Origin: Prevotella sp.
Lineage (GTDB): Bacteria; Bacteroidota; Bacteroidia; Bacteroidales; Bacteroidaceae
Length of the DNA stretch: 64,000 nucleotides
NCBI GenBank assembly: GCA_017619755.1
Contig: JAFZRU010000007.1
Span: forward strand, 1-64,000
Direction of reading: 5' to 3'
Of this stretch, positions 50,961 through 64,000 are shown piece by piece. The notes under the pieces are model-generated. The model was given only the letters and a program-made list of their open reading frames with translations, made no database searches and was not told where the DNA came from. The translations under genes and the position numbers were made by a program. The first letter of the stretch is position 1; each line of letters begins with the position of its first letter.

Positions 50961-51284
50961 TCAGCAGAGTGCGATTTTCCCAATGCCGGACATTTCGAGA
51001 TTCACGGAAATATCCATGGCCTTGAACACACGCATCACACTGGAGAGGCTGATGCTCTTGCCTTTCTCCAACCGTGAGATCTGTGACCTCTGCACCCCTA
51101 TTCTCTGGCCAAGTTCTTCCTGTGTAAGGTTCCTGGCAAGTCTCGCCTGCTTGATGGCCTCGCCGACATGGTAAGCATGGATTTCCTCTGCCAACTGTGC
51201 CTCGAACTCATCACGCTCTGGTGTCCCGACAGGACCGAGGTCTCTGTCTTTCAACTCATCCAATGAATAAAGTTTCATCGACAT
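50961..51284 (-). CDS. HTH-XRE antitoxin (HigA-like)
   Basis: A 107-residue DNA-binding protein with a xenobiotic-response-element helix-turn-helix: AIKQARLARNLTQEELGQRIGVQRSQISRLEKGKSISLSSVMRVFKAM at about 43-92. It follows the toxin gene by 7 bp. Such antitoxins bind the toxin and repress their own promoter. An internal ATG (MKLYSLDEL, 51278) is an alternative start. Confidence 0.85.
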   Translation of the reverse strand: MSMKLYSLDELKDRDLGPVGTPERDEFEAQLAEEIHAYHVGEAIKQARLARNLTQEELGQRIGVQRSQISRLEKGKSISLSSVMRVFKAMDISVNLEMSGIGKIALC

Positions 51285-51291
51285 TATACCA

Positions 51292-51636
51292 TTATTTTGA
51301 TTCGTAATACTCTTTTCTCAAAGCTTCCGCTCTTGCTATTTCCTTGGCTGGCACTTTCCATGTTTTCTTTACAAAACCATGAGTGGCAACCACCAACCGC
51401 TTCTTCTTAGCATCCCAAAATGCCAGCAGACGATAATGGATGCCGTTGAAGAGTGTGCGGAACTCCCAGAAGTCATCAGAGCCTTCAAGCTTCTTGAACA
51501 AGTCGCCATCCTTGATGCCTCCCGCTACCTTTGTGATATTGTAGTATATCTTCTTACGAGGCTGGTTCGGCAGGTTCTTCAAGAACTCGCTTGCATCATC
51601 CATGAAGAAAACGTCAAATTGACCCTGCTGTTCCAT
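51292..51636 (-). CDS. RelE/HigB-like toxin
   Basis: A 114-residue protein of the RelE/ParE superfamily, closest to the HigB/Gp49-like branch: FLKNLPNQPRKKIYYNI, LFKKLEGSDDFWEFRTLFNGIHYRLLAFWDAKKKRLVVATHGFVKKTWKVP. It should cleave mRNA at the ribosome when free of antitoxin. The toxin gene comes first, as in higBA. It is transcribed from a consensus promoter with a leader of about 20 bases. Confidence 0.85.
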   Translation of the reverse strand: MEQQGQFDVFFMDDASEFLKNLPNQPRKKIYYNITKVAGGIKDGDLFKKLEGSDDFWEFRTLFNGIHYRLLAFWDAKKKRLVVATHGFVKKTWKVPAKEIARAEALRKEYYESK

Positions 51637-51805: not shown

Positions 51806-51893
51806 GGAAAGGTGCTCGAGTGGCTGAAGAGGCACGCCTGGAAAGCGTGTGACCGACAAAATCGGTTCGTAGGTTCGAATCCTATCCTTTCCG
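51806..51893 (+). tRNA. tRNA-Ser (anticodon GGA)
   Basis: 88 bases folding as a class II tRNA: acceptor stem GGAAAGG with CCTTTCC, discriminator G, an anticodon stem CACGC/GCGTG closing the loop CTGGAAA (anticodon GGA), a long variable arm (GACCGACAAAATCGGTTC), and a T loop GTTCGAATC. CCA is not encoded. Confidence 0.93.
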
Positions 51894-51909
51894 CGAAGAT
51901 AACAAGTTG

Positions 51910-51940
51910 AAAGAGAGCCATTTGGCTCTCTTTCTTTTTT
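51910..51940 (+). terminator. Terminator of tRNA-Ser
   Basis: A perfect 10-bp stem (51910-51919 with 51924-51933), a four-base loop and a T-rich tail to 51940. The symmetric A/T flanks let it also serve the convergent gene ending at 51939. Confidence 0.85.
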
Positions 51941-53450
51941 ATGGATTTTGTCCCAGTCGTCTGGTATATTTCACGTTGACGGCTTCACCTTTGAGCAGGT
52001 CGGCAAAGTCTTGAGGCCGGATGGTGACGGGTCCACGCATGAACTCCGGGATGTTGTAGCTGCGCATAAACTGCCTGTGATAGTCGGGGTCGGCGGAAGG
52101 CAGTTCAAAAGGCTTGCTCCCATGCCCATTGGTGTCGATATGGGCGATGAAAGGCCGTGTGAACGTCCCGTCGTCACGCCGGCTGCTGAAAATAACCCAT
52201 CGTCCATTGCTCGACCAGGAATGGTAACTTTCTGTGTCAGGCGAGTTCCATTCATTCATTTTACGCACTTCCCCACTTTTGAGGTCCATCATCCACAAAT
52301 CGGCGTCATGGTGCCAGATATGGAAATAACCATGCTCGCCGGAAGAGAAGAGGAGGAAGCGTCCGTCAGGAGAGATACGCGGCAAGACGGCGCTTTGCCC
52401 CACGGCAGCGGCGTCGAAAACCAACTCACGCGGCCCAAAGAGCATGGTCTGCGGGTCGAAGCTTTTCTTATAGATGTTGTATTTCAGATTTTTATAATGA
52501 GTCACCACATTCCATTTCTTGGGTAAATCTGTATCGCCCTTGACGAAATGGCCACTGCAATAATAGAGGGTGTTGCCGTCAGGCGACCAGGCAGGGAACA
52601 CCTCAAACTCCGTCGAGTCATTCTCAAGATTGGTCACCAGGTCATTCTCCACATCGTAGGCAATGATGTCGCTCGCCGTATCATAGACCTCTACTTTATT
52701 CGAATCCACGGTGTGAAAATTCTGCACGGTCTTGTCGGTGGCATAGACGATGAGGTTGAGTTGGGGATGCCATGCCGGATACACACCCGCTAAAAGAATG
52801 GAGTCGTTCCTCATATTCACCTTTTTCATCTTCCCGTCATAGACCACCACGGTGCCTCCGAGTGTCTGGCGAGCATGGAACTGCATCCTCCCCGGATTGT
52901 AATTCTGATAGTGATGGCAGTTGATGCACTGTCCGTCCCTCTCATGCCCGCAAAGGAAATTGTCGTAGATGACACTCTCGTCATAATTCTCCAAGCACCG
53001 CTGGTTGATGGTCAACGTCTCATACGTGACAAACGAAGGGGAGATGAGACGATAGCTGATATACGGGTCGATGGAATCAGGAGAGACATACAAGTTGAAG
53101 GGTTTGTACCGTGTCCATTGACCATCCTTTCGCAAATAGACATCCACCTTGATGGCACCGCCCTTCGCCTTGGCCGTCAGTTCACGCCATTCATCCATCT
53201 CTGGCTGCATCTGCCCGCCACAAACGACCACCTGGTCCCCTACGGTGTAGCTTGCCACCATCTCATCGGCAGGTTGGTCGGCCTCAAAAGTCAGGGGGGC
53301 GATGTTGATGGGGATGGTTACATTGACATAGTCGGGATATATGGTGGGAAACGCTGAGGACTGGGTGTAGTCAGCAGGCACGGACACCTTTTCACACGAC
53401 ATCAGCGAGACGATGGCCAGAGCGGCCATCCAACATCTCATTGTATTCAT
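51939..53450 (-). CDS. TolB/PD40-type propeller lipoprotein with a CxxCH heme motif
   Basis: A 503-residue lipoprotein (signal MNTMRCWMAALAIVSLMSC, lipidated Cys19). Residues 35-150 form a beta-rich domain. CINCH at 175-179, inside GQCINCHHYQNYNPGRMQFH, is a c-type heme attachment motif. The rest carries PD40-like blades (PAWSPDGNTLYYCSGHF, PRISPDGRFLLFSSGEHGYFHIW, HSWSSNGRWVIFSSRRDDG). Homologues are often called TolB-like or cytochrome c biosynthesis proteins without experimental support known to me. It lies 4 bp after the DUF6057 gene and is probably co-transcribed with it. Confidence 0.72.
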   Translation of the reverse strand: MNTMRCWMAALAIVSLMSCEKVSVPADYTQSSAFPTIYPDYVNVTIPINIAPLTFEADQPADEMVASYTVGDQVVVCGGQMQPEMDEWRELTAKAKGGAIKVDVYLRKDGQWTRYKPFNLYVSPDSIDPYISYRLISPSFVTYETLTINQRCLENYDESVIYDNFLCGHERDGQCINCHHYQNYNPGRMQFHARQTLGGTVVVYDGKMKKVNMRNDSILLAGVYPAWHPQLNLIVYATDKTVQNFHTVDSNKVEVYDTASDIIAYDVENDLVTNLENDSTEFEVFPAWSPDGNTLYYCSGHFVKGDTDLPKKWNVVTHYKNLKYNIYKKSFDPQTMLFGPRELVFDAAAVGQSAVLPRISPDGRFLLFSSGEHGYFHIWHHDADLWMMDLKSGEVRKMNEWNSPDTESYHSWSSNGRWVIFSSRRDDGTFTRPFIAHIDTNGHGSKPFELPSADPDYHRQFMRSYNIPEFMRGPVTIRPQDFADLLKGEAVNVKYTRRLGQNP

Positions 53451-53454
53451 AACA

Positions 53455-55431
53455 CTAATATTGCGGGAGGTTTGACATCAGATAATAATCATAAAAATAG
53501 GTATTTCCAAAGAGTGGATACAACAACTTCCTCGCCTCCTCCATGTCCAAGCCATCGTATTGGGAAGCAGCTTGCGAGAACTGTTCATAAGTCGTTTTCA
53601 CCCCTGGGTCAAAAGGCATGCTGTCGAGGTCGGGTCGCTTCTCCTCCACACCAAACGTATAGGCAGCCTGCTGATAATACAATGGTATCTTGTCATTGGG
53701 ATGCAGTTTGACATAGTTGGTGAATTGATACCAGAAAAACTCTGGAACTTTCAGCCACATGGACGCCAGCAGGCATTGCTCCTGAAAGACAGGGTCTCCA
53801 ACATAGTTGGTGTGGGCGAGGTGTTTCATCAGGTATTCCTCTACGAAACCATTATCGGAACTCAGTTCATTGGGATAGTGGAGCATGTGGGTGATGGGTT
53901 CCATTTCCGGGTCCTTGGCTATCTGTTCTGGGTGGTTCAGCAGGTTCTCCGCCCATGCCGCCCAATCTTTGAAAAAGGTGGTATTCTTCAGGATATGGAT
54001 GTATTTTTTAGCCAAAGACTTGTCTCCATCAAGGATGGCACAGCGGGTCAGGTATTTGTAATACACCGGCCGCCAGTCATATTCCACCCCCATCTCCATG
54101 GCCAACCGTGCACAGTCGTTCAGTTTTCCATATTGATAATAAATGAGCATGCCAACGACCTGCATCATGCGTACGTCAACGTGGATGGCATCTTGTTGAT
54201 GAAAAAGAGGATCATAAAATTTGCTCTTTTTCGAGCCGTTTTTGAAATTGTACATCTCCGTGCTTTGACGTCCCAGACGTGACAGAGCCAGGTTTTTCAT
54301 CATCACGATGGCACGGGTGGGTTCCTCCTCTTGGGCGGCCGCCTCGCTGATCACCCCCTCCCAGTCATGTTGCTCGATGCAATGCTGCATCCTCAACTCA
54401 CGATGGTAATTGGAATCCTTGAACCAGAAATGTGCCACACCTACGGTGAGCAATGCCACAATGACGACGGTCCACACAGTCGGTGCCCAACGACGCCATT
54501 TGCCGGCGGCGACAGGTTTCCTTGCTGCCCTGGCAGGCTTGCCCATTTTCTGCTGCTTCCTTCTCTCTTGCCTCGACAGCTGTGGCTCGCTGGCTTCTGC
54601 AGGCTTTTGCGCAATTGGGGCGACAGTCTTCATCTTCATCCGCTTCCAAGGCACACACGCCATAACGACGAAGTAGAGCAACAGCAGATAGAAAGGTATG
54701 TAATATTGATGGTATTCTTCCACGAGATAATAGAGAGGCAGTTCCGTGAAATAGATATTGGTGATGTTGGTTTCATGATAGACATACCGGTAACACAGCA
54801 AAGGAACAGCCACCACGCCAAGCACCGCCACCACGCTGTTGAGCAAGGCCGTGCCTCGTGATTGGAGACGCCAAGACCAAATCGCCATCAACAACACAGC
54901 CGCCAACCCATAGATGCCCATCAGGGGATAACCTGCCACGGCGACTACCAACAGGAATATCGTGCGGAGAAAGAAACGGCCGGTCAGGCAGCGGAAACAC
55001 CACAACAAGGCCACCACCGCCGTGCAACCGATGGTTGCGACGAAGAAGTGCCCCCGTAATTTGAGGAAATAGACCCAATATCCTTGGTCAACGATGGTCA
55101 ACAGCAGGAGGGTGACGGGTATCAGCATCAGCACCGCCCACTTGTCAGGCACCTGGAAGGTGCGCTTGACCAATCCCATCAACAGGAGCCACCACGCACA
55201 GAGCATCAACACCCCCACCGTGGGATGATGGAGAAACTGCGTGAAAAACGTGCCGAGATAAGTGAGCAACCCACCCGACACGACCATCTGCTGCTTGAAA
55301 TAGAGCGAGGTGTTGAGGAAAAGATTCATCTCCTGCATTTTCCAAAGCAGGTCGTTCTCATACACCAGCAAGGCACAGGCAATGACAACCAGCGCCAGAA
55401 GCCATATTGCAATGAATGATATTTTTTTCAT
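53455..55431 (-). CDS. DUF6057-like multi-pass membrane protein
   Basis: A 658-residue protein. The first half is a polytopic membrane domain (ISFIAIWLLALVVIACALLVYENDL, VLMLCAWWLLLMGLV and about six more helices) with a conserved-looking YYLVEEYHQYYIPFYLLLLYF. After a basic cytoplasmic linker (about 305-365, rich in Arg, Lys, Ala and Gln) and one more helix, a soluble alpha-helical half looks TPR-like (RMQHCIEQHDWEGVISEAAAQEEEP ... ALSRLGR). Function unknown. The start at 55431 (MKKISFIAIW) was preferred to an upstream one lacking a signal-like character. A TATTTTTG box at 55480-55473 on the minus strand may be its promoter. Confidence 0.78.
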   Translation of the reverse strand: MKKISFIAIWLLALVVIACALLVYENDLLWKMQEMNLFLNTSLYFKQQMVVSGGLLTYLGTFFTQFLHHPTVGVLMLCAWWLLLMGLVKRTFQVPDKWAVLMLIPVTLLLLTIVDQGYWVYFLKLRGHFFVATIGCTAVVALLWCFRCLTGRFFLRTIFLLVVAVAGYPLMGIYGLAAVLLMAIWSWRLQSRGTALLNSVVAVLGVVAVPLLCYRYVYHETNITNIYFTELPLYYLVEEYHQYYIPFYLLLLYFVVMACVPWKRMKMKTVAPIAQKPAEASEPQLSRQERRKQQKMGKPARAARKPVAAGKWRRWAPTVWTVVIVALLTVGVAHFWFKDSNYHRELRMQHCIEQHDWEGVISEAAAQEEEPTRAIVMMKNLALSRLGRQSTEMYNFKNGSKKSKFYDPLFHQQDAIHVDVRMMQVVGMLIYYQYGKLNDCARLAMEMGVEYDWRPVYYKYLTRCAILDGDKSLAKKYIHILKNTTFFKDWAAWAENLLNHPEQIAKDPEMEPITHMLHYPNELSSDNGFVEEYLMKHLAHTNYVGDPVFQEQCLLASMWLKVPEFFWYQFTNYVKLHPNDKIPLYYQQAAYTFGVEEKRPDLDSMPFDPGVKTTYEQFSQAASQYDGLDMEEARKLLYPLFGNTYFYDYYLMSNLPQY

Positions 55432-55472
55432 AACCGCTGAAGCAAATTTTTTGGATTCACTTAAAGAAAATG

Positions 55473-55480
55473 CAAAAATA
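55473..55480 (-). promoter_or_regulatory. Possible -7 box of the DUF6057 gene
   Basis: TATTTTTG on the minus strand, 41 bases before the ATG; no TTG at the expected -33 position. Confidence 0.35.
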
Positions 55481-55513
55481 CAAAATAAAATGGAAACCGA
55501 TGGGTTTTTATTC

Positions 55514-55561
55514 AAAAAATCGTGCGTCACGTTTCCGCAAAAAATCGGAAAGTGACGCACG
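55514..55561 (-). terminator. Terminator of the SusCD locus
   Basis: A 10-bp perfect stem (55521-55530 with 55552-55561) extended by a 5-bp inner stem (55532-55536 with 55547-55551), followed on the minus strand by six T. It lies 39 bases after the stop codon of the last gene of the locus. Confidence 0.85.
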
Positions 55562-55600: not shown

Positions 55601-57811
55601 TTACTTATTCACGAGTTTCTTGCCATTCCTGACAACGATGCCCTTGTAATCCTTGGACACACGCTGGCCTGCGAGGTTGAAGGTAGCAGTAGGAACAGTG
55701 TTGGTGCTCACCACAGTGCTGATGCCCTCCGGGTCGGAGTAAACCTCAGGATTGCCACCAAGAACCTTCACATAGAAGTTCTCTGAACCTGTTTCATTGA
55801 TAAGAGCCTCATTGTCGTCAGTTTTCCAGACAAAGTCTTTCAGCTCGTAGATGTTGGCGTCCTTGATTTCTGACAAGTTGAAGGCAATGGACTGCATTCC
55901 GTCAGCCTCTCCAGCAACAGTGAATGTGTTCTCGAAGTCTTGCCATTCCTCAGTGAAGTTGACATCACCGATGGCAGCCCAGTGGAGGTAGTTGCCTGGT
56001 GTGCTGTGGCTCTGTGTGGAAACCCTTGCGGGAATGGCACTCTTGTACTTGAACTGGACGGTAGTGTTCTCACCAGCTTTAAGCGGACGGTTGGAAACGA
56101 TCCAGAACTGGTTGTCCCAAGGCTGGCCGGGGTTAGCAGGAGCCTCGATTCCAAGTGATTCAGCTTCAGAAGTCGTGTATTCTCTTTCAAGAGCATTGAT
56201 TTTGACAAGAGTCGGGTTGGGCTTGATTTCAACCGGTTTAAGTTCTCGACCTTCGAGCATCTCGAATGCCATGGCCTTGTACTCATCAGTAAGGTAAATC
56301 TTCCAGATACCCTCACCGGGAAGGTTCAGTTTGGCAAGGCTTGATTCTGTGTAGTCAATCCAATCTTCGCGGTCGTCGGTGATTTCGCGAGTAGGCTTGA
56401 GCGTGGCGCTCTTGAAGGCAGCGTCGTTACCGCGAACGGTGGAAATCATAACTTGTGACACATATTCATTCTTGCTGCCAATGGTAGCCACGTAGCAAGG
56501 AATTTCAGCTGCTTCCGCGTCCCAAACGAACTGGACTGCATTGTCGAAGTCATACTCAAGACCAGCACTGGGGTTGGCGCCAGCAACAAAGTAACCCTCG
56601 TCAAGCTTCATGGATTGCCATGAGAGGTCGTCGAAATAGAAGTTAATAGCATCCTTGTCATTCTGGTTCAGCTGGAATGCGATAGACCAAGTACCGGCCA
56701 TATCATCAGCAATAGTCATCGTACCGTTGAAATCCTGCCATTCTTCTTTGAATGTAACGTCACCAATAGCATGCCAGATAAGGTAGTCAGATGGGTTCTG
56801 ATTGTGGCATTGAGTAGCAACCGTTACTTCCTTTGAAGCCTTGTAACGGAAGTGAATCTTCACCTGGTCGCCAGACTTCCAAGCTTTAGGAGATTGGATC
56901 CAGAACTGGTTGTCCCATGCAGAGGCATCACCCTCTGTGGTGGCAGCCTGACCATGGACGACGAATACGTGGCTGCCATCCACCTCTTCAATATCGGCGG
57001 GGAATGGATCCCAACCATCATTTTCATTCATGTTGCGACCTTTCTCCTTGCCCCATGCACAAATCAGATAGTTCTTTTCCTGATCGTTGAATTTTGCGTT
57101 AGGATCGCTCCAAGGTGTCTCGGCATCACCCATGTAGGTGGGGATGGGATTTCCATCGACAAGAACAGGTTGTCCATCACTTGTGAGCCACTCAAGCCAC
57201 TGGACAGGTCTTGTCTCCTTCTTCCAATGATAAACTGTAACGCTCTTCCACTCGATGGTGGCAGCGACGGTACCCGGCTGTGCGACGAGGTTGCAAGAAG
57301 CACCTCCGATGCCGTTGTACTCCCATTCCACCTCTTGCCAATCAGTGCCAATTGCAACGGAAGCGCTGGCCTGCTGGCCACTAGCCCAACCCCAACCCAT
57401 GTTGACGTTGATGGTACAAGGTTCAGAAGCCTTCACCATTGCCACGACTTTGTAAGTGCCATCGATTTCTGTTGGAATGCCATCGGCAATGAAATACTGG
57501 TGCCAATATGGACCAGCACCTGTTACCTTCTGATACTCAACTCCATTAGCGGTTGTGGTTGAACCAGCAGAAGACTCTCCTTCTTTCCATTTGCTGTCAC
57601 CATCACCATCCAGATTTTCCTGAGTTTCATACCTGTAATCTGAGCCAAAGTCGGTCATCACACCGTCATACCACTCTGGCACATACCCCATTACGTAGAA
57701 TGGGAATCCAGTGTTCTGTGAGTAGTCGATTTTGTAAACTTCCACCCACTCTGCTGCCCTTGCTCCCATGAAGCATGTCAAGAGAGCCAAAAGAGTAAAG
57801 ATTTTTTTCAT
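55601..57811 (-). CDS. Secreted protein with duplicated carbohydrate-binding-like modules
   Basis: A 736-residue protein with a signal peptide (MKKIFTLLALLTCFMGARA). A first beta-sandwich lies at about 85-200 (WHQYFIADGIPTEIDGTYKV). Two clearly homologous modules follow at 297-400 and 564-662, sharing WDNQFWI, F+YK, TQ.H, AIGDV.F.EEWQDF and SIAF.L, in the style of CBM4/CBM22-type jelly rolls. No glycosidase motif is seen. The C-terminus (ATFNLAGQRVSKDYKGIVVRNGKKLVNK) is a type IX-like sorting tail. As the last gene of the SusC/D operon it probably binds the target glycan at or beyond the cell surface. Confidence 0.75.
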   Translation of the reverse strand: MKKIFTLLALLTCFMGARAAEWVEVYKIDYSQNTGFPFYVMGYVPEWYDGVMTDFGSDYRYETQENLDGDGDSKWKEGESSAGSTTTANGVEYQKVTGAGPYWHQYFIADGIPTEIDGTYKVVAMVKASEPCTINVNMGWGWASGQQASASVAIGTDWQEVEWEYNGIGGASCNLVAQPGTVAATIEWKSVTVYHWKKETRPVQWLEWLTSDGQPVLVDGNPIPTYMGDAETPWSDPNAKFNDQEKNYLICAWGKEKGRNMNENDGWDPFPADIEEVDGSHVFVVHGQAATTEGDASAWDNQFWIQSPKAWKSGDQVKIHFRYKASKEVTVATQCHNQNPSDYLIWHAIGDVTFKEEWQDFNGTMTIADDMAGTWSIAFQLNQNDKDAINFYFDDLSWQSMKLDEGYFVAGANPSAGLEYDFDNAVQFVWDAEAAEIPCYVATIGSKNEYVSQVMISTVRGNDAAFKSATLKPTREITDDREDWIDYTESSLAKLNLPGEGIWKIYLTDEYKAMAFEMLEGRELKPVEIKPNPTLVKINALEREYTTSEAESLGIEAPANPGQPWDNQFWIVSNRPLKAGENTTVQFKYKSAIPARVSTQSHSTPGNYLHWAAIGDVNFTEEWQDFENTFTVAGEADGMQSIAFNLSEIKDANIYELKDFVWKTDDNEALINETGSENFYVKVLGGNPEVYSDPEGISTVVSTNTVPTATFNLAGQRVSKDYKGIVVRNGKKLVNK

Positions 57812-57935: not shown

Positions 57936-59594
57936 TCATTGGCCACTGAGGGCATCGCAGAACGCCTTGTAAGTGGCAGTGCGCACCCAGTCCTTGCTAT
58001 TCTTGTCAATAGACCACAGCCCTACGGGATCACTCGTATCTGCCATGTTGCCCTTGCAGATGCCGGCTTGCTTGTCATTGGGAATCTTGTTCATATAACT
58101 CTTGATGACGTAGCCATAGTAGTCGGCGAGTTTCTGCCGTTGGCCCTCACTGATCTTATCAGCCGCCACAAAGGCACCTTCTGCATCCTGATACTTGATG
58201 TCGAAGTTGGAGAGGCGGATGAGTTTACCGGTGGTGGCAAGATTGGCAAGAAGATTGTCAAGAGAAGCAATGTTGGCAGCCTGTGTGGCTTCATCTTCGC
58301 TATAGAAGAGATTCAGTTTGGCATTGATGCCGTCAATCTTCGCTCCATTGGCGTCCCAAATGCCTATCCAGTATTTGAGGCTTTCCAATTTCTTCGGGTC
58401 ATCCAACCCCGACTCACCGATGAAGAACCTCAGTTCGGCGGGATTGCCTTCATACTTTTCGAATGCCGCACTTGCCGACCTTGAAACGACGGGAGCATAG
58501 TTTTCACTACCAAGGATATCTTGCCAGAAAATCTTATCGGTGGAGTGCTTGAGGTCAAGCATACCGTTCTCAAGAGTGGCTTTGGAGTCGATAGCTTCGT
58601 CGATGAGGTCGAAAGTCTTGATACGGCCTCTGTTGATTTTCATCAGTCCATCGCACCAGGCGTTGAGAGCATAGTAAATGGTATCCGTTTTCTCCTGTTC
58701 CGTCTGCGGGCGGTGGTTGTCGGGATTGTGCATCACCTGGACGCTCTTGATATAGACATTGCCGTTCAAGTTACCATCAATCATCAAGTAACCGTATGAA
58801 ATATCATCACCCGGCATAGCATCCACCACCACTTTCACCCATTTTCCAGGCTTGAGGTCGTATTTCTTGTCACCTCCGTTTTCCTGAATTCTCTTGGAGT
58901 CGCAGAAAGTACAGTAAATGGATTCATCCTTGTCCACCTTTGCATAGAACGTGATGGTGTATTCACCGAGTGGATCGACATCAAAGTCTTCCACGATGTA
59001 CACTTTTGAAAACCTCGGGACCCTGAGCGCATTGTCTTCACCGTCATAATTCTTTTCGATTCTTGGTTTGCCGCTCACCGCCGTACCAGTGAACTCTTCC
59101 ATGGTGGTGTAATCTACAAACTTGTCTTCCACAGGATCCACAGGAATTTCGATAGGGGCGGTGAGGGTGCTCAACCAACTGTCTGCCTGATTGGCATTGG
59201 CAAAGAGAGGACTGCCATAAACCACTGCATTTATTTCTTCCACATGGTCAAGAAGGTCATTCATGTCAAGGAAGTTCATCACACCTTTGGCGTTCACAAT
59301 GGTGCCAGACATGAGAGAAGTACCGAAAGTGACATCGTTGAAGTTGGTGATGGCTGCCGAATGAGCCAGTTCCTGCTTGTTGAAATCTGTCGCCTTGAGT
59401 GTGGCGCCGATGGACATGTTGGGATGGGCGTCCCTGTTAATATATGACTTGACAGGTGCCAAATCCTTATATGGCTCTACGAAGGCAGGGTCAATCTCGG
59501 CATGGAAATCGTCTGTCACGTTATAGTCGGCACAGGAAACCGCAAGGACACCTGCAGCCAACATCAAGAGACCGTTTCTAAAATTAGCATTCAT
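57936..59594 (-). CDS. Degenerate GH10-like lipoprotein, probable surface glycan-binding protein
   Basis: A 552-residue lipoprotein (LAVSC, lipidated Cys21). Residues 60-150 and 300-550 follow the family 10 xylanase order, with a CBM-like beta-sandwich inserted at about 155-290, as in Bacteroidetes Xyn10 enzymes. Key sites have changed. The family's ENEMK motif reads GTSLMS (in FNDVTFGTSLMSGTIVNAKG). GHTLVWH reads YGSPLFAN. The nucleophile motif TELD reads SNFD (460-465). The acid/base region is kept as DLIDEA (Glu333), and the end LWSIDKNSKDW resembles the xylanase WGVxDxxSW. It is unlikely to hydrolyse xylan; glycan binding is inferred from its place in a SusC/D operon. Confidence 0.72.
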   Translation of the reverse strand: MNANFRNGLLMLAAGVLAVSCADYNVTDDFHAEIDPAFVEPYKDLAPVKSYINRDAHPNMSIGATLKATDFNKQELAHSAAITNFNDVTFGTSLMSGTIVNAKGVMNFLDMNDLLDHVEEINAVVYGSPLFANANQADSWLSTLTAPIEIPVDPVEDKFVDYTTMEEFTGTAVSGKPRIEKNYDGEDNALRVPRFSKVYIVEDFDVDPLGEYTITFYAKVDKDESIYCTFCDSKRIQENGGDKKYDLKPGKWVKVVVDAMPGDDISYGYLMIDGNLNGNVYIKSVQVMHNPDNHRPQTEQEKTDTIYYALNAWCDGLMKINRGRIKTFDLIDEAIDSKATLENGMLDLKHSTDKIFWQDILGSENYAPVVSRSASAAFEKYEGNPAELRFFIGESGLDDPKKLESLKYWIGIWDANGAKIDGINAKLNLFYSEDEATQAANIASLDNLLANLATTGKLIRLSNFDIKYQDAEGAFVAADKISEGQRQKLADYYGYVIKSYMNKIPNDKQAGICKGNMADTSDPVGLWSIDKNSKDWVRTATYKAFCDALSGQ

Positions 59595-59609: not shown

Positions 59610-60743
59610 TTATGGTTTAATGTATTTTGGTGAGAAGAATACTTTCTGGTTAGACTCCCGAGTTTGAACGACAAGGGTATCGTTTGTGGAGGATTGAATG
59701 TTCAATTTGTCGAAGCTTACATTATACGAAAGACGGAGAATGTCTCGCTGGACAGGCTCGCCATTCATGCTTCCCCATTGATAGTCCTTGTATTCCTGCC
59801 TTTCTGTTCCCTTGACAATGAATTCTCCAGAACCAGTAACTGTTACATCCTCATCGTCGGTAGATATCGTGCAATTGTTACCATTGAAAGTAAGGATGAG
59901 GTTGCACAACAAGGAAGCCTGATTACCAGAACGTTTGATTGAAACGGGGAAGATGGCTTGCGACATGTTCTTGGTGGTGATGCCACACACCTCGTCGTTC
60001 TGGTTGACAGGGTTCTCCTTGTAATGCTCAAGGTCGGAGTTAATCAATGAGAAATCCTTACGTACATAAGTATTGGTAACACCATTTTCCGTCACATTGT
60101 CCACACCGCGTCGGATATATTTTCCCTGCCAGGGGTTCATGTACTTCACGCAGTAAAGCACATAGTCCTTGGCAAGAACTTCCCAATCCTCCGTATTGGT
60201 ACGGGATGGCTGGAGCCCTTCACGTGGAGTACCCGTAAGGATGTGGTCAATGCCTTTAACGTTCGTCATCACCAATGGAATGACGTAGGTTTCGTCAATG
60301 GCTTTGGGATCGTTGAAGAAAGCATCAGTGAACTGCACTTCCACATATCCTCTTTGATCTCCCTTGTAAGGAATGACATTGGAAGAAAGGGTATAATATG
60401 CCGATGGCATGGGAAGGACGGGGGCAGATGGATTACCACCTGCATCAACAAACCAGAGGTTGTTGCAAAGAGCCTCATCTACTGCAATATCCACGTATGC
60501 GTTTCTTCCACCGTATGCTCCACCCATGGTTGACCATATCCGGCACTTGTGCTCGTTATCGAGGGTGTTGTCGTAGATGTCGTTTCCAAGTACAAGGGTT
60601 CGTACCGGGAACTGGTAAGCGAAGTAGGCAGTAGTACCTCCTTCATAGTCAGGGAACTCATGGTCTGCATTATAGCAAGAGACGTAGGTGAGCGAAAGAG
60701 CTCCCAAGGCTATTCCGAATATATATGTCTTAAGTCTCATCAT
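59610..60743 (-). CDS. DUF1735/DUF5627-type lipoprotein of the SusCD locus
   Basis: A 377-residue lipoprotein (GALSLTYVSCYNADHEFPDYEGG, lipidated Cys23). The first half looks like the DUF1735 beta-sandwich found in Bacteroidetes surface glycan-binding proteins and some glycosidases (VDIAVDEALCNNLWFVD ... YYTLSSNVIPYKGDQRGYVEVQFTDAFF). The second half resembles DUF5627 (GKYIRRGVDNVTENG ... LRLSYNVSFDKL). It probably helps capture the glycan on the outer membrane. It lies 15 bp before the GH10-like gene and 21 bp after susD. Start may be 60743 or 60740. Confidence 0.75.
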   Translation of the reverse strand: MMRLKTYIFGIALGALSLTYVSCYNADHEFPDYEGGTTAYFAYQFPVRTLVLGNDIYDNTLDNEHKCRIWSTMGGAYGGRNAYVDIAVDEALCNNLWFVDAGGNPSAPVLPMPSAYYTLSSNVIPYKGDQRGYVEVQFTDAFFNDPKAIDETYVIPLVMTNVKGIDHILTGTPREGLQPSRTNTEDWEVLAKDYVLYCVKYMNPWQGKYIRRGVDNVTENGVTNTYVRKDFSLINSDLEHYKENPVNQNDEVCGITTKNMSQAIFPVSIKRSGNQASLLCNLILTFNGNNCTISTDDEDVTVTGSGEFIVKGTERQEYKDYQWGSMNGEPVQRDILRLSYNVSFDKLNIQSSTNDTLVVQTRESNQKVFFSPKYIKP

Positions 60744-60764: not shown

Positions 60765-62603
60765 TTAATACCAGCCCTTGTTTTGCTTGAGGTTGCTAAA
60801 TTTGAGCACTTCACTCTTGGGAATTGGTCCGAACCACTGATAAGAGCTGTCGAACTCACGTTTTTCCACATCTTCCTTGACTTTATAGACAAGAGTGCCG
60901 GTTTCTTCAATACGGGTAATCTCCATACCTCTGATTGGCTCGTTGATGGGCAACATCCAACGGCGGAGGTCCCAGAAGCGCTTGTTCTCAAAGCAAAGCT
61001 CTAAGCGACGCTCGTTACGGATGAGATTCGTCATCAAGGTCTTGTCCGCAGCACAGGCTTCGAGATAGACATCACCTTCTGGAAGGGGTTGGCCAATCTC
61101 GTTAGTTCCAAGACCTGCACGCTGACGAATGGCTTTGATGACGTCGTATGCAGTGAAACCTATGCCAGTTGGATCTGCCTTGGGTCCCCAGGCATCGTTG
61201 GCTGCTTCCGCATAGGCCAGGAAGATTTCCGTGTAGCGAATGCGTGGATAGACGTGCCACTGCTTGATTTCCGACCCACTTGCCGCAGGTGCCACATCGT
61301 CACGGAGAAGTTTCTTCAGGTAATAACCAGTACGTGTTGACTGATAAGGTAGTTTGTCGACGTTGTCATGAAACTCGCCCTTGGAGTTGGCATAGTAACC
61401 TGTGATGATATCAATTCTTCTGAATGTGGTGCCGTTATAGATGATGTAGTCAGAAAGACGAGGGTCACGGTTCAAGTATGGGTCCTGTGGGTTGTAACCC
61501 GAGGCGGGATCCGTGATGGGAAGTCCGTTGCGCATGGGGAAGGCATCAACAAGGTTCTGTGATGGATTGACGCGTCCGTTGCCATAGAGTGATGGCGGGA
61601 AGTTGTCCGCTTCCTGCGATGAATTGTTGTGTCCGTCTTCACGGCTTTCCCGCCAAAGAATTTCAGGCATCTCAGCAGACCCCGGCCCAAGTTTGGAAGT
61701 ATTCTTGTACCAGATGTTTCCCGTGGGGTCGAAGCCATCCAATCCTCCGTTGTGCTTGAGCACAATGGCACAAAGCGAGGCAGCATCTGCAGAAGTCACT
61801 CCGCTTTGTTCGCGGAATGCCGGGCTTGCAGCAAGCAAGGCAATTTGTGCCTTGACAGCTTCGACAATCTTTGCAGACATCAAGCCTTCTGCCTTGTAAC
61901 CGAAGACGAGGTTGAAACTGGAGTAATTCGCCCCGAGAGACCTATACTTGGCAGGGATTTCATCATCATCGAAGACGTCAATGTATTCATAAGGGAGATA
62001 CATCAAAGCACTGTCGCAGTCGGCAAAACATTGCTGTACGCATTTGGTGAAAGTGGCACGTGGCTGATTGAAATCGGAACTACCATCTTCCGGTGTGGTG
62101 AGCAAAGGTACTCCGTATAGAATGCCGTCGTCCGCATAACCACCATGGGCCTGTAGCAAATAGTAATAAAGTAGCGCACGAAGTGCGAATGCTTCCCCTT
62201 TCAACCGGTCAGTGAACATCTGTTGCTTGGATTCAGCACTGGGGGCCCATTTCGTCTTGTCAACAATCGTGAGGAATAGATTGACATACTGGATGCCACC
62301 CTTGCATTTGACCCATTGAGACATGGGGTCGTTGTCAGACTGCCATGAACCATAAGCAGCCATCTCCATGTAAGCGTTGCTTTTCGCATTGGAGACCGCA
62401 TCATCGGTGGCAACGTCCGTCTGAGTGGTATTCATATAAGGAAGACTACCGTAGGCGTACATCAGCAGACCATGTGCATAGTCAGATTCCTCGGCCAAGT
62501 CATCCAACTGCCGGAAGTTTTCTTTTGCCGGCTCGAACATGTCATCACATGCGCATAAGGCAAGGAGACCGATGAAAAAGCATATAATGTGTCTTGTCTT
62601 CAT
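60765..62603 (-). CDS. SusD/RagB family outer-membrane lipoprotein
   Basis: A 612-residue lipoprotein (MKTRHIICFFIGLLALCACDD, lipidated cysteine near 18-19) with the SusD TPR helices: SDYAHGLLMYAYGSLPY, LKGEAFALRALLYYYLLQAHGG (the SusD RAE.r.lRA.yy..L motif), YPRIRYTEIFLAYAEAAND, and the C-terminal LIRNERRLELCFENKRFWDLRRWM. It binds an oligosaccharide and acts as the lid of the SusC transporter encoded 15 bp upstream. Confidence 0.95.
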   Translation of the reverse strand: MKTRHIICFFIGLLALCACDDMFEPAKENFRQLDDLAEESDYAHGLLMYAYGSLPYMNTTQTDVATDDAVSNAKSNAYMEMAAYGSWQSDNDPMSQWVKCKGGIQYVNLFLTIVDKTKWAPSAESKQQMFTDRLKGEAFALRALLYYYLLQAHGGYADDGILYGVPLLTTPEDGSSDFNQPRATFTKCVQQCFADCDSALMYLPYEYIDVFDDDEIPAKYRSLGANYSSFNLVFGYKAEGLMSAKIVEAVKAQIALLAASPAFREQSGVTSADAASLCAIVLKHNGGLDGFDPTGNIWYKNTSKLGPGSAEMPEILWRESREDGHNNSSQEADNFPPSLYGNGRVNPSQNLVDAFPMRNGLPITDPASGYNPQDPYLNRDPRLSDYIIYNGTTFRRIDIITGYYANSKGEFHDNVDKLPYQSTRTGYYLKKLLRDDVAPAASGSEIKQWHVYPRIRYTEIFLAYAEAANDAWGPKADPTGIGFTAYDVIKAIRQRAGLGTNEIGQPLPEGDVYLEACAADKTLMTNLIRNERRLELCFENKRFWDLRRWMLPINEPIRGMEITRIEETGTLVYKVKEDVEKREFDSSYQWFGPIPKSEVLKFSNLKQNKGWY

Positions 62604-62618: not shown

Positions 62619-64000
62619 TTAGAGGGTTACCTTTACACCGAGATTATAGAAACGAGTCTGTGGGGCATATCCAACGGTTGTCTCCATCAACTTGCGCTCC
62701 TTGGAGAAGGTGAGGAGGTCGTTGCCGTTCACATAGATGGAGAGAGCATTCACCCACTTGCCATCAAAGATTTTCGACGGGAAATCATAAGTGAGTTGCA
62801 CCTTGCGGAGGTCGAAGCGGTCCGTGCTGTATTTCCAGAAAGTAGAAGCCTCACCATTGTGGGCGTGGTTCCCTGCAGTCAGACGAGGATGCGTAGCCGT
62901 ATTAGCTGTCTCAGGCGTCCAACGCCCACGAGCATTGACGGAGTACTTGGTGTTAGAACACATATAATAGTAATTGTTGTTCTTCATTCCGTATGCACCA
63001 TACTGACCATTGCCCAAGAGGAAAAGGGTAAAGTTCTTATATTTGAGAGTGAGGTTCAAACCAACCGTGATGGGAGCACCGAATGTACCACTCTTGCCAA
63101 GGTCAACCTTATCCTTGCCGTCGATGATGCCGTCACCATTCACATCCTCATACTTCAAGTCACCAGGCTGGATGGTGCCGCCAATCCTTGATTTCGGCAG
63201 GTCGCTTCTCAATTCGTATTTTGTCGTACCATCAGCGTTTGTGGTCACATTAAAATCACTGACAGGATAGAATCCCAAACATTTGTAACCCCAGAGGACG
63301 TCAAGAGGACGTCCCTCGTTGTTTTGGTGCTTCGTCAAGTCATCCAAGAGTTCATCGCACTTTTTGTACTCAGTGGTGAGATAGGTGCCGACAACACCCA
63401 GCTGGGCGTAAACTTGCCCCAACTGCTTCTGAACAGTTACGCTGAAGTCAAGTCCCTTGCGGTTCTGGATGTTGTTGTTGATGGCCGGCATAAACGTTCC
63501 GTTGTTAAGGCCACCCTGCAAGTGTGAAGGGAATGTGGACAAGTTTTGGACAATGAAGCCATCCATATCCGTATTGAAGAAGGTGAGGTCGGTGGTAATC
63601 AGCTTGTTGAAGAACGACCCACGAAGGCTAACGGAGAATTCCTTGCGGTGGATGAAGTCAAGGGCGGGGTTGCTACCAACTTGAGAATTCGTAAGATTGA
63701 CAGATGTACCTTCATTCCAAGAGAATGAACTTCCAGCACTATTTGTCCACGTAGGCTCGTAGATATAGTAGTATCTACTACCCAAATAGACATCTATATC
63801 CTCGTTGAGGTCGCTATAGGATGCACTGAGCATCAAGTCATCAATGAAGCTGTCCTGCAAGAAGGCCTCCTTGGCAATATTCCAACCAATCGTGAAAGAA
63901 GGGGAGAGTGCTTCGCGATGCCCCTCTGCCAGACGTGCAGAATGAACAGCCGCCAACGAAGCTTCCGCGAAGTAGCGATCCATGAAGTCATAACCGGCCA
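62619..64000 (-). CDS. SusC/RagA TonB-dependent transporter, C-terminal part (5' end outside window)
   Basis: About 460 residues of the C-terminal barrel of a SusC-type transporter. The frame is open to the window edge, upstream of the first ATG (YDFMDRYFAEASLAAVHSARL resembles the SusC YKGRYLLEAS strand), so the gene continues beyond 64000. Barrel strands include LGSRYYYIYEPTW, DLTFFNTDMDGFIVQN, KGLDFSVTVQKQLGQVYAQLGV and the usual SusC end FSKERKLMETTVGYAPQTRFYNLGVKVTL. DVNGDGIIDGKDKVDLGKSG is the standard Ca-binding-like loop of the family. It imports the oligosaccharide captured by SusD. Confidence 0.93.
   Translation of the reverse strand, partial: AGYDFMDRYFAEASLAAVHSARLAEGHREALSPSFTIGWNIAKEAFLQDSFIDDLMLSASYSDLNEDIDVYLGSRYYYIYEPTWTNSAGSSFSWNEGTSVNLTNSQVGSNPALDFIHRKEFSVSLRGSFFNKLITTDLTFFNTDMDGFIVQNLSTFPSHLQGGLNNGTFMPAINNNIQNRKGLDFSVTVQKQLGQVYAQLGVVGTYLTTEYKKCDELLDDLTKHQNNEGRPLDVLWGYKCLGFYPVSDFNVTTNADGTTKYELRSDLPKSRIGGTIQPGDLKYEDVNGDGIIDGKDKVDLGKSGTFGAPITVGLNLTLKYKNFTLFLLGNGQYGAYGMKNNNYYYMCSNTKYSVNARGRWTPETANTATHPRLTAGNHAHNGEASTFWKYSTDRFDLRKVQLTYDFPSKIFDGKWVNALSIYVNGNDLLTFSKERKLMETTVGYAPQTRFYNLGVKVTL

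Follow-up and report, generated by a model that had tools for sequence, protein, structure and literature searches.

Does a GH10-type lipoprotein that has lost its catalytic nucleophile still act on xylan, or has a xylanase been turned into a binding protein? The question is raised by a gene (P0001) in a window of 64,000 nucleotides from a Prevotella genome (positions 1 to 64,000 of contig JAFZRU010000007.1), for which a preliminary description had proposed the second answer. The coordinates given there for the open reading frame were right, for a gene encoded on the minus strand (Table 1). A xylanase turned binding protein is the best, if unproven, reading of the sequence: P0001 is probably a catalytically dead Xyn10C-type xylanase that has been kept as a surface xylan-capture protein, akin to the SusE/F-like glycan-binding proteins, within a core xylan operon.

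Table 1. Features of the P0001 locus (positions in the window; residue counts by amino acid are for the 78 members of the P0001 family)
Feature	Position	Strand	Basis or remark
SusC-like transporter, cut by window edge	62619..63998	-	complete in L007 5619-8579
SusD-like protein	60765..62603	-	Pfam
XusE-like protein, BT_3987-like_N + DUF5627	59610..60743	-	Pfam; 41% identical to BACOVA_03430 equivalent
Dead GH10-fold lipoprotein P0001, 552 aa	57936..59594 (including stop)	-	ORF translation, Pfam
Lipoprotein signal peptide and lipobox, residues 1-21	59532..59594	-	lipobox by eye; 78-row alignment
GH10 barrel part 1, residues 22-147, to end of beta3	59154..59531	-	alignment with active GH10s; without confident model
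CBM4-like insert, residues 148-293	58716..59153	-	Pfam in family; insertion point as in PMC7848910
GH10 barrel part 2, residues 294-552, alpha3 to alpha8	57939..58715	-	Pfam, model, xylanase matches
Glu333 codon, acid/base position	58596..58598	-	E 68, K 8, R 1, G 1
Lys426 codon, Gln203 position, covaries with residue 333	58317..58319	-	K 68, E 9, Q 1
Asn463 codon, GH10 nucleophile position	58206..58208	-	N 77, D 1
Multi-CBM4 protein P0003, 736 aa, signal peptide by eye	55601..57811	-	constant downstream partner of P0001

The GH10 homology first seen by eye was borne out by a Pfam profile match (E = 1.1e-11; 44.9 bits, twice the curated cut-off of 22.1), with residues 301-503 as the best stretch. 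For comparison, we assembled a family set of 78 proteins (P0001, members from 69 genus genomes and from 8 further family genomes, E<=1e-180, none dropped), of which 76, P0001 counted, matched GH10 in a one-by-one Pfam scan (E<=0.01). The signal sequence of P0001 terminates in LAVSC21, a lipobox by eye, and Cys21 is identical in all 78 members, in agreement with the lipid anchor suggested earlier. About 146 residues are inserted between beta3 and alpha3. P0001 alone matches no CBM in Pfam, its insert being divergent, and CBM_4_9 was matched in 23 of the 78 members in the same scan. The insert lies at the site where active Xyn10C enzymes bear CBMs and thus qualifies as a CBM4 insertion of the Xyn10C type, which upholds the view of a CBM-like domain set between two GH10 parts. 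Searches against PDB sequences gave no match for P0001 alone (phmmer) and weak matches for the family profile (best E 0.041), so that the evidence for the fold rests on models. A full-length AlphaFold model built on a three-row alignment was poor (pLDDT 47), and the barrel that had been anticipated is supported for residues 293-552 only, by a good model of this C-terminal segment (pLDDT 78), which matches xylanases.

Alignments of 145 and 176 GH10-like proteins showed which residues have been lost; labels such as K47 and H205 follow the usual GH10 numbering. In P0001, K47 is replaced by M95 (Met in 78/78 members), H80 by S128 (S 77, C 1), W84 by A132 (A 76, S 2), H85 by N133 (N 77, S 1), N127 by D332 (D 74, E 4) and H205 by N428 (N 66, S 8, D 3, T 1; n=78 throughout). 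The GHTLVWH motif had thus been correctly described as lost, as had the nucleophile, for which alignments with active GH10s place Asn463 in P0001. The same losses run through the whole family, as a homologue search was expected to reveal if this was a family: the nucleophile Glu is absent in 78/78 members and the K47, H80 and H85 equivalents are gone from all 78. P0001 therefore has neither the nucleophile Glu of a GH10 nor the active site of a Xyn10C endo-xylanase. One change turned out not to be special to P0001, namely the absent E of ENEMK, since active homologues already have GNxMK and CjXyn10C has Gly there (PMC7848910). Active Xyn10C relatives likewise lack the -2 subsite Glu; they keep the nucleophile, the acid/base, HxxxWH, K47, Q203 and H205, whereas P0001 keeps only the acid/base Glu of these.

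That this acid/base Glu remains is true of P0001 itself (Glu333), but 10 of the 78 family members have K, R or G instead, so that the Glu is no catalytic remnant under constraint. The residues at positions 333 and 426 occur as the pairs E-K (68 members), K-E (8), R-E (1) and G-Q (1). Because the charge is exchanged in step with residue 426, we read Glu333 as a pairing partner, probably forming an ion pair with Lys426. On the tree the charges were exchanged just once, with a G-Q change in L092 besides, too few events for a statistical test. Several residues of the catalytic face are invariant in 76-78 of the 78 members. Contrary to expectation, conservation of the ex-catalytic columns as a set does not exceed that of other barrel columns (p = 0.25). 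The insert is the least conserved part of the protein (mean entropy 1.49 vs. 0.85 for the barrel, n=78), which speaks for the barrel mattering and seems odd for a binding domain. The Glu kept in 68 members, together with the strong conservation of Asp332, Asn463 and Asp465, would suit a protein that is still an enzyme, through relocated catalytic residues or another reaction; we consider this very improbable given a nucleophile Glu missing from every member, a replaceable acid/base and the family-wide loss of K47, H80 and H85.

The loss of catalytic residues is all that would favour a decaying xylanase pseudogene. In 26 pairs of family members (those with 0.1 < dS < 1.5 out of 27 pairs above 80% identity), omega was 0.07-0.22, with a median of 0.11, and all 78 members have open frames of at least 540 codons. 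The gene is under purifying selection and is not decaying; with almost all members sharing one set of replacements besides, a pseudogene is scarcely credible. Among 398 sampled genomes of the genus to which the window belongs (its own genome counted), 70 have a family member, as do 9 of 300 other genomes drawn at the family level, one of which, G708, was also in the genus draw. No close orthologue was seen in the other 392 genomes of an order-level draw, where the next best protein was 41% identical over part of its length, and scans of viral contigs gave no relatives of P0001.

The gene lies in a minus-strand series in the order GH10-esterase gene, susC, susD, susC, susD, XusE-like gene, P0001, P0003 (first susC/susD pair by eye), in which the GH10-esterase gene and the first pair fall past the SusC-like gene, outside the window. 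The preliminary description had placed susC, susD and a DUF1735 gene upstream: susC and susD are there, as two pairs, but the adjacent gene is the XusE-like one. Successive genes are separated by 21 bp (susD to XusE-like), 15 bp (XusE-like to P0001) and 124 bp (P0001 to P0003). A XusE-like homologue ends 3-72 bp upstream in 77/77 testable members, the 78th having 2 bp of upstream DNA; XusE-like genes also precede many intact GH10s. P0001 thus occupies the place after susC-susD-xusE that belongs to Xyn10C, and its operon is the core xus cluster, published as xusA-xusB-xusC-xusD-xusE-xyn10C (PMC7848910), except that Xyn10C has given way to a dead protein. Active Xyn10C-like proteins (BACOVA_04390, BACINT_04215 and Pm25; PMC7848910) have both this operon slot and the CBM4-type insertion point in common with P0001. 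With the same cut, the insert measures 149 aa in P0001, compared to 288-513 aa in 35 and 146-183 aa in 12 of 47 intact rows (thinned set). Beyond this series, a sensor-regulator gene (Reg_prop, HisKA, Y_Y_Y) is encoded on the opposite strand. A promoter/terminator scan gave 11 promoter-like sites (7.1 expected, sd 2.6). Two of them, both minus-strand, fall within or next to the gap that precedes P0003 (57945-57917 and 57857-57830), so that P0003 may be transcribed separately; the scan gave no terminator-like site in this gap.

The earlier remark that no characterised inactive GH10 could be cited no longer stands. BACOVA_03431, from Bacteroides ovatus PUL-XylL, is an inactive GH10 and a lipoprotein of the cell surface, with two xylans, BGX and CX, as ligands (Rogowski et al. 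2015, PMC4491172), and it is called an inactive GH10 of the core xylan utilization cluster in PMC4855328. The authors of PMC4491172 state that no other naturally inactive GH10 was known to them, and in the open-licence literature we found this one case with a tested function. A review (PMC11610566) suggests an inactive, xylan-binding GH10 role for a Phocaeicola gene too. Two other apparent cases were set aside: PMC12333352 was a false match, the relevant text concerning GH107, and that of PMC5593877 concerns GH10-like substrate range. In a different family, GH18-like chitin-binding lectins are inactive glycosidase-family members used for binding (PMC4491172), as proposed here for P0001.

A scan of contigs with a Bacteroides relative, P0002, gave 2 loci, B. 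ovatus not among them; the BACOVA_03431 equivalent was recognised by gene order, via its GH98 neighbours, at L227:10925-13174, in a genome (G1092) that is probably B. ovatus ATCC 8483. There, two susC/D pairs and a XusE-like gene are followed by the equivalent, a GH30 gene (a weak match, 23.2 bits) and GH98. Like P0001, the protein is a lipoprotein with GH10 homology, an insert and a lost nucleophile, encoded in the slot after susC-susD-susC-susD-XusE-like, and the XusE-like neighbours of the two are 41% identical. The two proteins themselves are 27% identical over 266 and 29% over 144 residues. The equivalent differs from P0001 in its size (750 aa, with a longer insert), in its former catalytic positions (Asp at the nucleophile and Asn at the acid/base, vs. 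Asn and Glu) and in having no P0003 homologue in the 6 kb behind it, where GH30 and GH98 lie.

P0001 is accompanied by P0003 with great regularity. A P0003 homologue lies directly downstream on the same strand, its frame opening within 475 bp, in 77/77 testable members (the 78th has 677 bp of DNA). Many of the 98 other GH10 loci have little downstream DNA, and a genome-wide count was therefore preferred as the comparison. In the 398-genome sample, the window's own counted, P0003 (E <=1e-40, only the two best candidates per genome being scored) was found in 70/70 genomes with the P0001 family vs. 3/328 without it, two of these three being short fragments; the genomes are related and the count is uncorrected for this, so the Fisher value is descriptive only. 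Residues 552-674 of P0003 match an intact GH10 on contig C28 of the same genome (38%), and residues 81-195, its first CBM, match 4MGS/4QPW (E 2e-8). These are structures of 142-150 residues deposited as GH10, which we take to be CBMs of B. intestinalis BiXyn10A. Stretches in seven further open frames of this genome resemble the last 40-55 residues of P0003, which might be a shared C-terminal sorting tag. Most of P0003 is also borne by very large proteins in other genomes (L235:4025-9379, L236:3256-8067 and L237:4638-8723), which have BspA-type leucine-rich repeats, a dockerin or InlB-type repeats as well, suggesting that the CBM block is mobile.

The strict pairing with P0003 would also fit a dead barrel that serves as a structural or docking subunit, such as an adaptor for SusC/SusD or a surface anchor for P0003, and binds no xylan itself. 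The absence of the catalytic residues agrees with such a role, and the near-fixed catalytic face is compatible with a protein interface. We think it unlikely, since BACOVA_03431, with a comparably gutted active site, binds xylan (PMC4491172), and since the CBM4-like insert has been kept, recognisably so in the 23 members with a CBM_4_9 match. Alternatively, the pocket might hold a decorated side chain or another polysaccharide, not the xylan backbone. The new residues in the old pocket are nearly fixed, and complex xylan (CX) is recognised by BACOVA_03431 and by the SusD protein BACOVA_03427 (PMC4491172), both of which would accord with a different glycan. The neighbours examined are all of xylan type (the GH10-esterase gene, XusE-like and SusD proteins related to those of xylan operons, and a xylanase-type CBM in P0003), making this quite improbable.

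The xylan-capture reading that we prefer draws on the GH10 homology and fold, the residue losses, purifying selection, the XusE-like slot, P0003 co-occurrence and the presence of other GH10 genes in the genome, one of which (L028) has a complete catalytic set. It draws further on the slot that P0001 has in common with BACOVA_03431, a surface-exposed, inactive and xylan-binding protein, and on the xylan-type first CBM of P0003. According to this reading, the lipid anchor would place P0001 on the outer membrane beside two SusC/SusD pairs. The barrel would be kept as a scaffold, its -1 subsite refilled by M95, S128, A132, N133, D332, N463 and the Glu333/Lys426 pair. The CBM4-like insert, the remodelled cleft or both would hold xylan, with the help of the adjacently encoded P0003 (unless P0003 itself does the holding), and present it to SusD/SusC, as proposed for BACOVA_03431, while other GH10 enzymes would do the cutting. 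The old cleft need not bind xylan, since nearly all of the examined catalytic and -1 subsite residues have been replaced. Operon position alone is no proof of binding either, given that the neighbouring XusE-type protein BACOVA_03430 bound no xylan (PMC4491172), although binding to arabinoxylan was seen for UNK, encoded before Pm25 (PMC7848910).

Was catalysis lost once or several times? In a tree of the GH10 core (77 rows by 375 columns, from which the insert and the catalytic positions had been removed; family thinned from 78 to 17 rows and intact proteins from 78 to 47, with 7 fragments left out), the P0001 family formed one clade (100/100) with an intact protein, L143 from genome G766, as its sister (100/98), and the BACOVA_03431 group was placed apart. 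A single clade of the P0001 family and BACOVA_03431 was not rejected (p-AU 0.297), and holding all inactive rows together gave p 0.049, for groups chosen after the first tree had been seen. The partner genes gave a sharper picture. The L143 operon was again sister to that of P0001 in a XusE-like tree (39 rows; 100/98) and a SusD tree (34 rows; 100/100), and one clade with BACOVA_03431 was rejected in both (p 0.003 and, as printed, p 2.8e-69, respectively). Because these trees separate the P0001 operon from that of BACOVA_03431 and join it to an intact sister, the simplest reading is that catalysis was probably lost separately in the two lineages. Gene replacement inside the operon could give the same picture. 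A 508-residue P0003-type frame stands behind L143 (26% identity), which makes it probable, on the basis of this one sister, that the CBM protein was already a separate one when catalysis was lost.

Further dead or half-dead GH10s occupy the same slot in other lineages: L121/L191/L194, L148, L025, L062 and L063, of which L148 and L025 are long branches whose placement in the GH10 tree is unsure. L190, the same gene as L121, is from Bacteroides cutis. The number of losses is uncertain, with at least two favoured. We tentatively put forward, as a possibility that is less likely than not to hold in full, that the Xyn10C slot is an evolutionary switch point of repeated catalysis loss: in the P0001 lineage, a separate protein of the P0003 type would first have supplied the xylan-binding modules, and the barrel would then have lost catalysis and become the constant member of a xylan-capturing pair, with the former active site serving as a specific pocket or docking face. 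A relative of the B. cutis protein (L191:10001-11758) is half-dead, with both catalytic Glu kept and K47 and HxxxWH lost. In a distant genome, L063 and L046 form a tandem GH10 pair (L186:7359-12161). L063 retains the nucleophile, carries Asp at the acid/base position and lacks K47 as well as the two HxxxWH His, and L046 has the full set.

An inactive GH10 of this kind had thus been described once already; what P0001 adds is a probable separate origin, a near-fixed pocket with a charge swap, an intact sister and a constant CBM partner. If loss did occur more than once in one operon slot, gut Bacteroidota would have gained surface glycan receptors repeatedly through enzyme death, and annotation that relies on the GH10 profile by itself would overcount xylanases, a consideration that touches the 70 of 398 genus genomes with a family member. 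With an intact sister and a constant CBM partner at hand, direct tests can address both which step came first and how the work is divided.

Some other features were seen in the genome and in the window. The same genome encodes, at L009:7030-9420, an intact GH10 whose insert is long and whose C-terminus looks dockerin-like by eye; inspection by eye of the surrounding 18 kb showed no frame resembling susC or susD. Behind P0003, the window encodes a DUF6057 protein and a PD40 propeller protein (51939-55560, Pfam), and a similar pair was seen by eye behind the GH10 genes of a distant genome (L186:14938-18071). Further along are a tRNA-Ser (GGA) on the plus strand (51806-51894) and, on the minus strand (50961-51636), a small gene pair that is RelE/HigB-like plus HTH by eye, of the toxin-antitoxin type.
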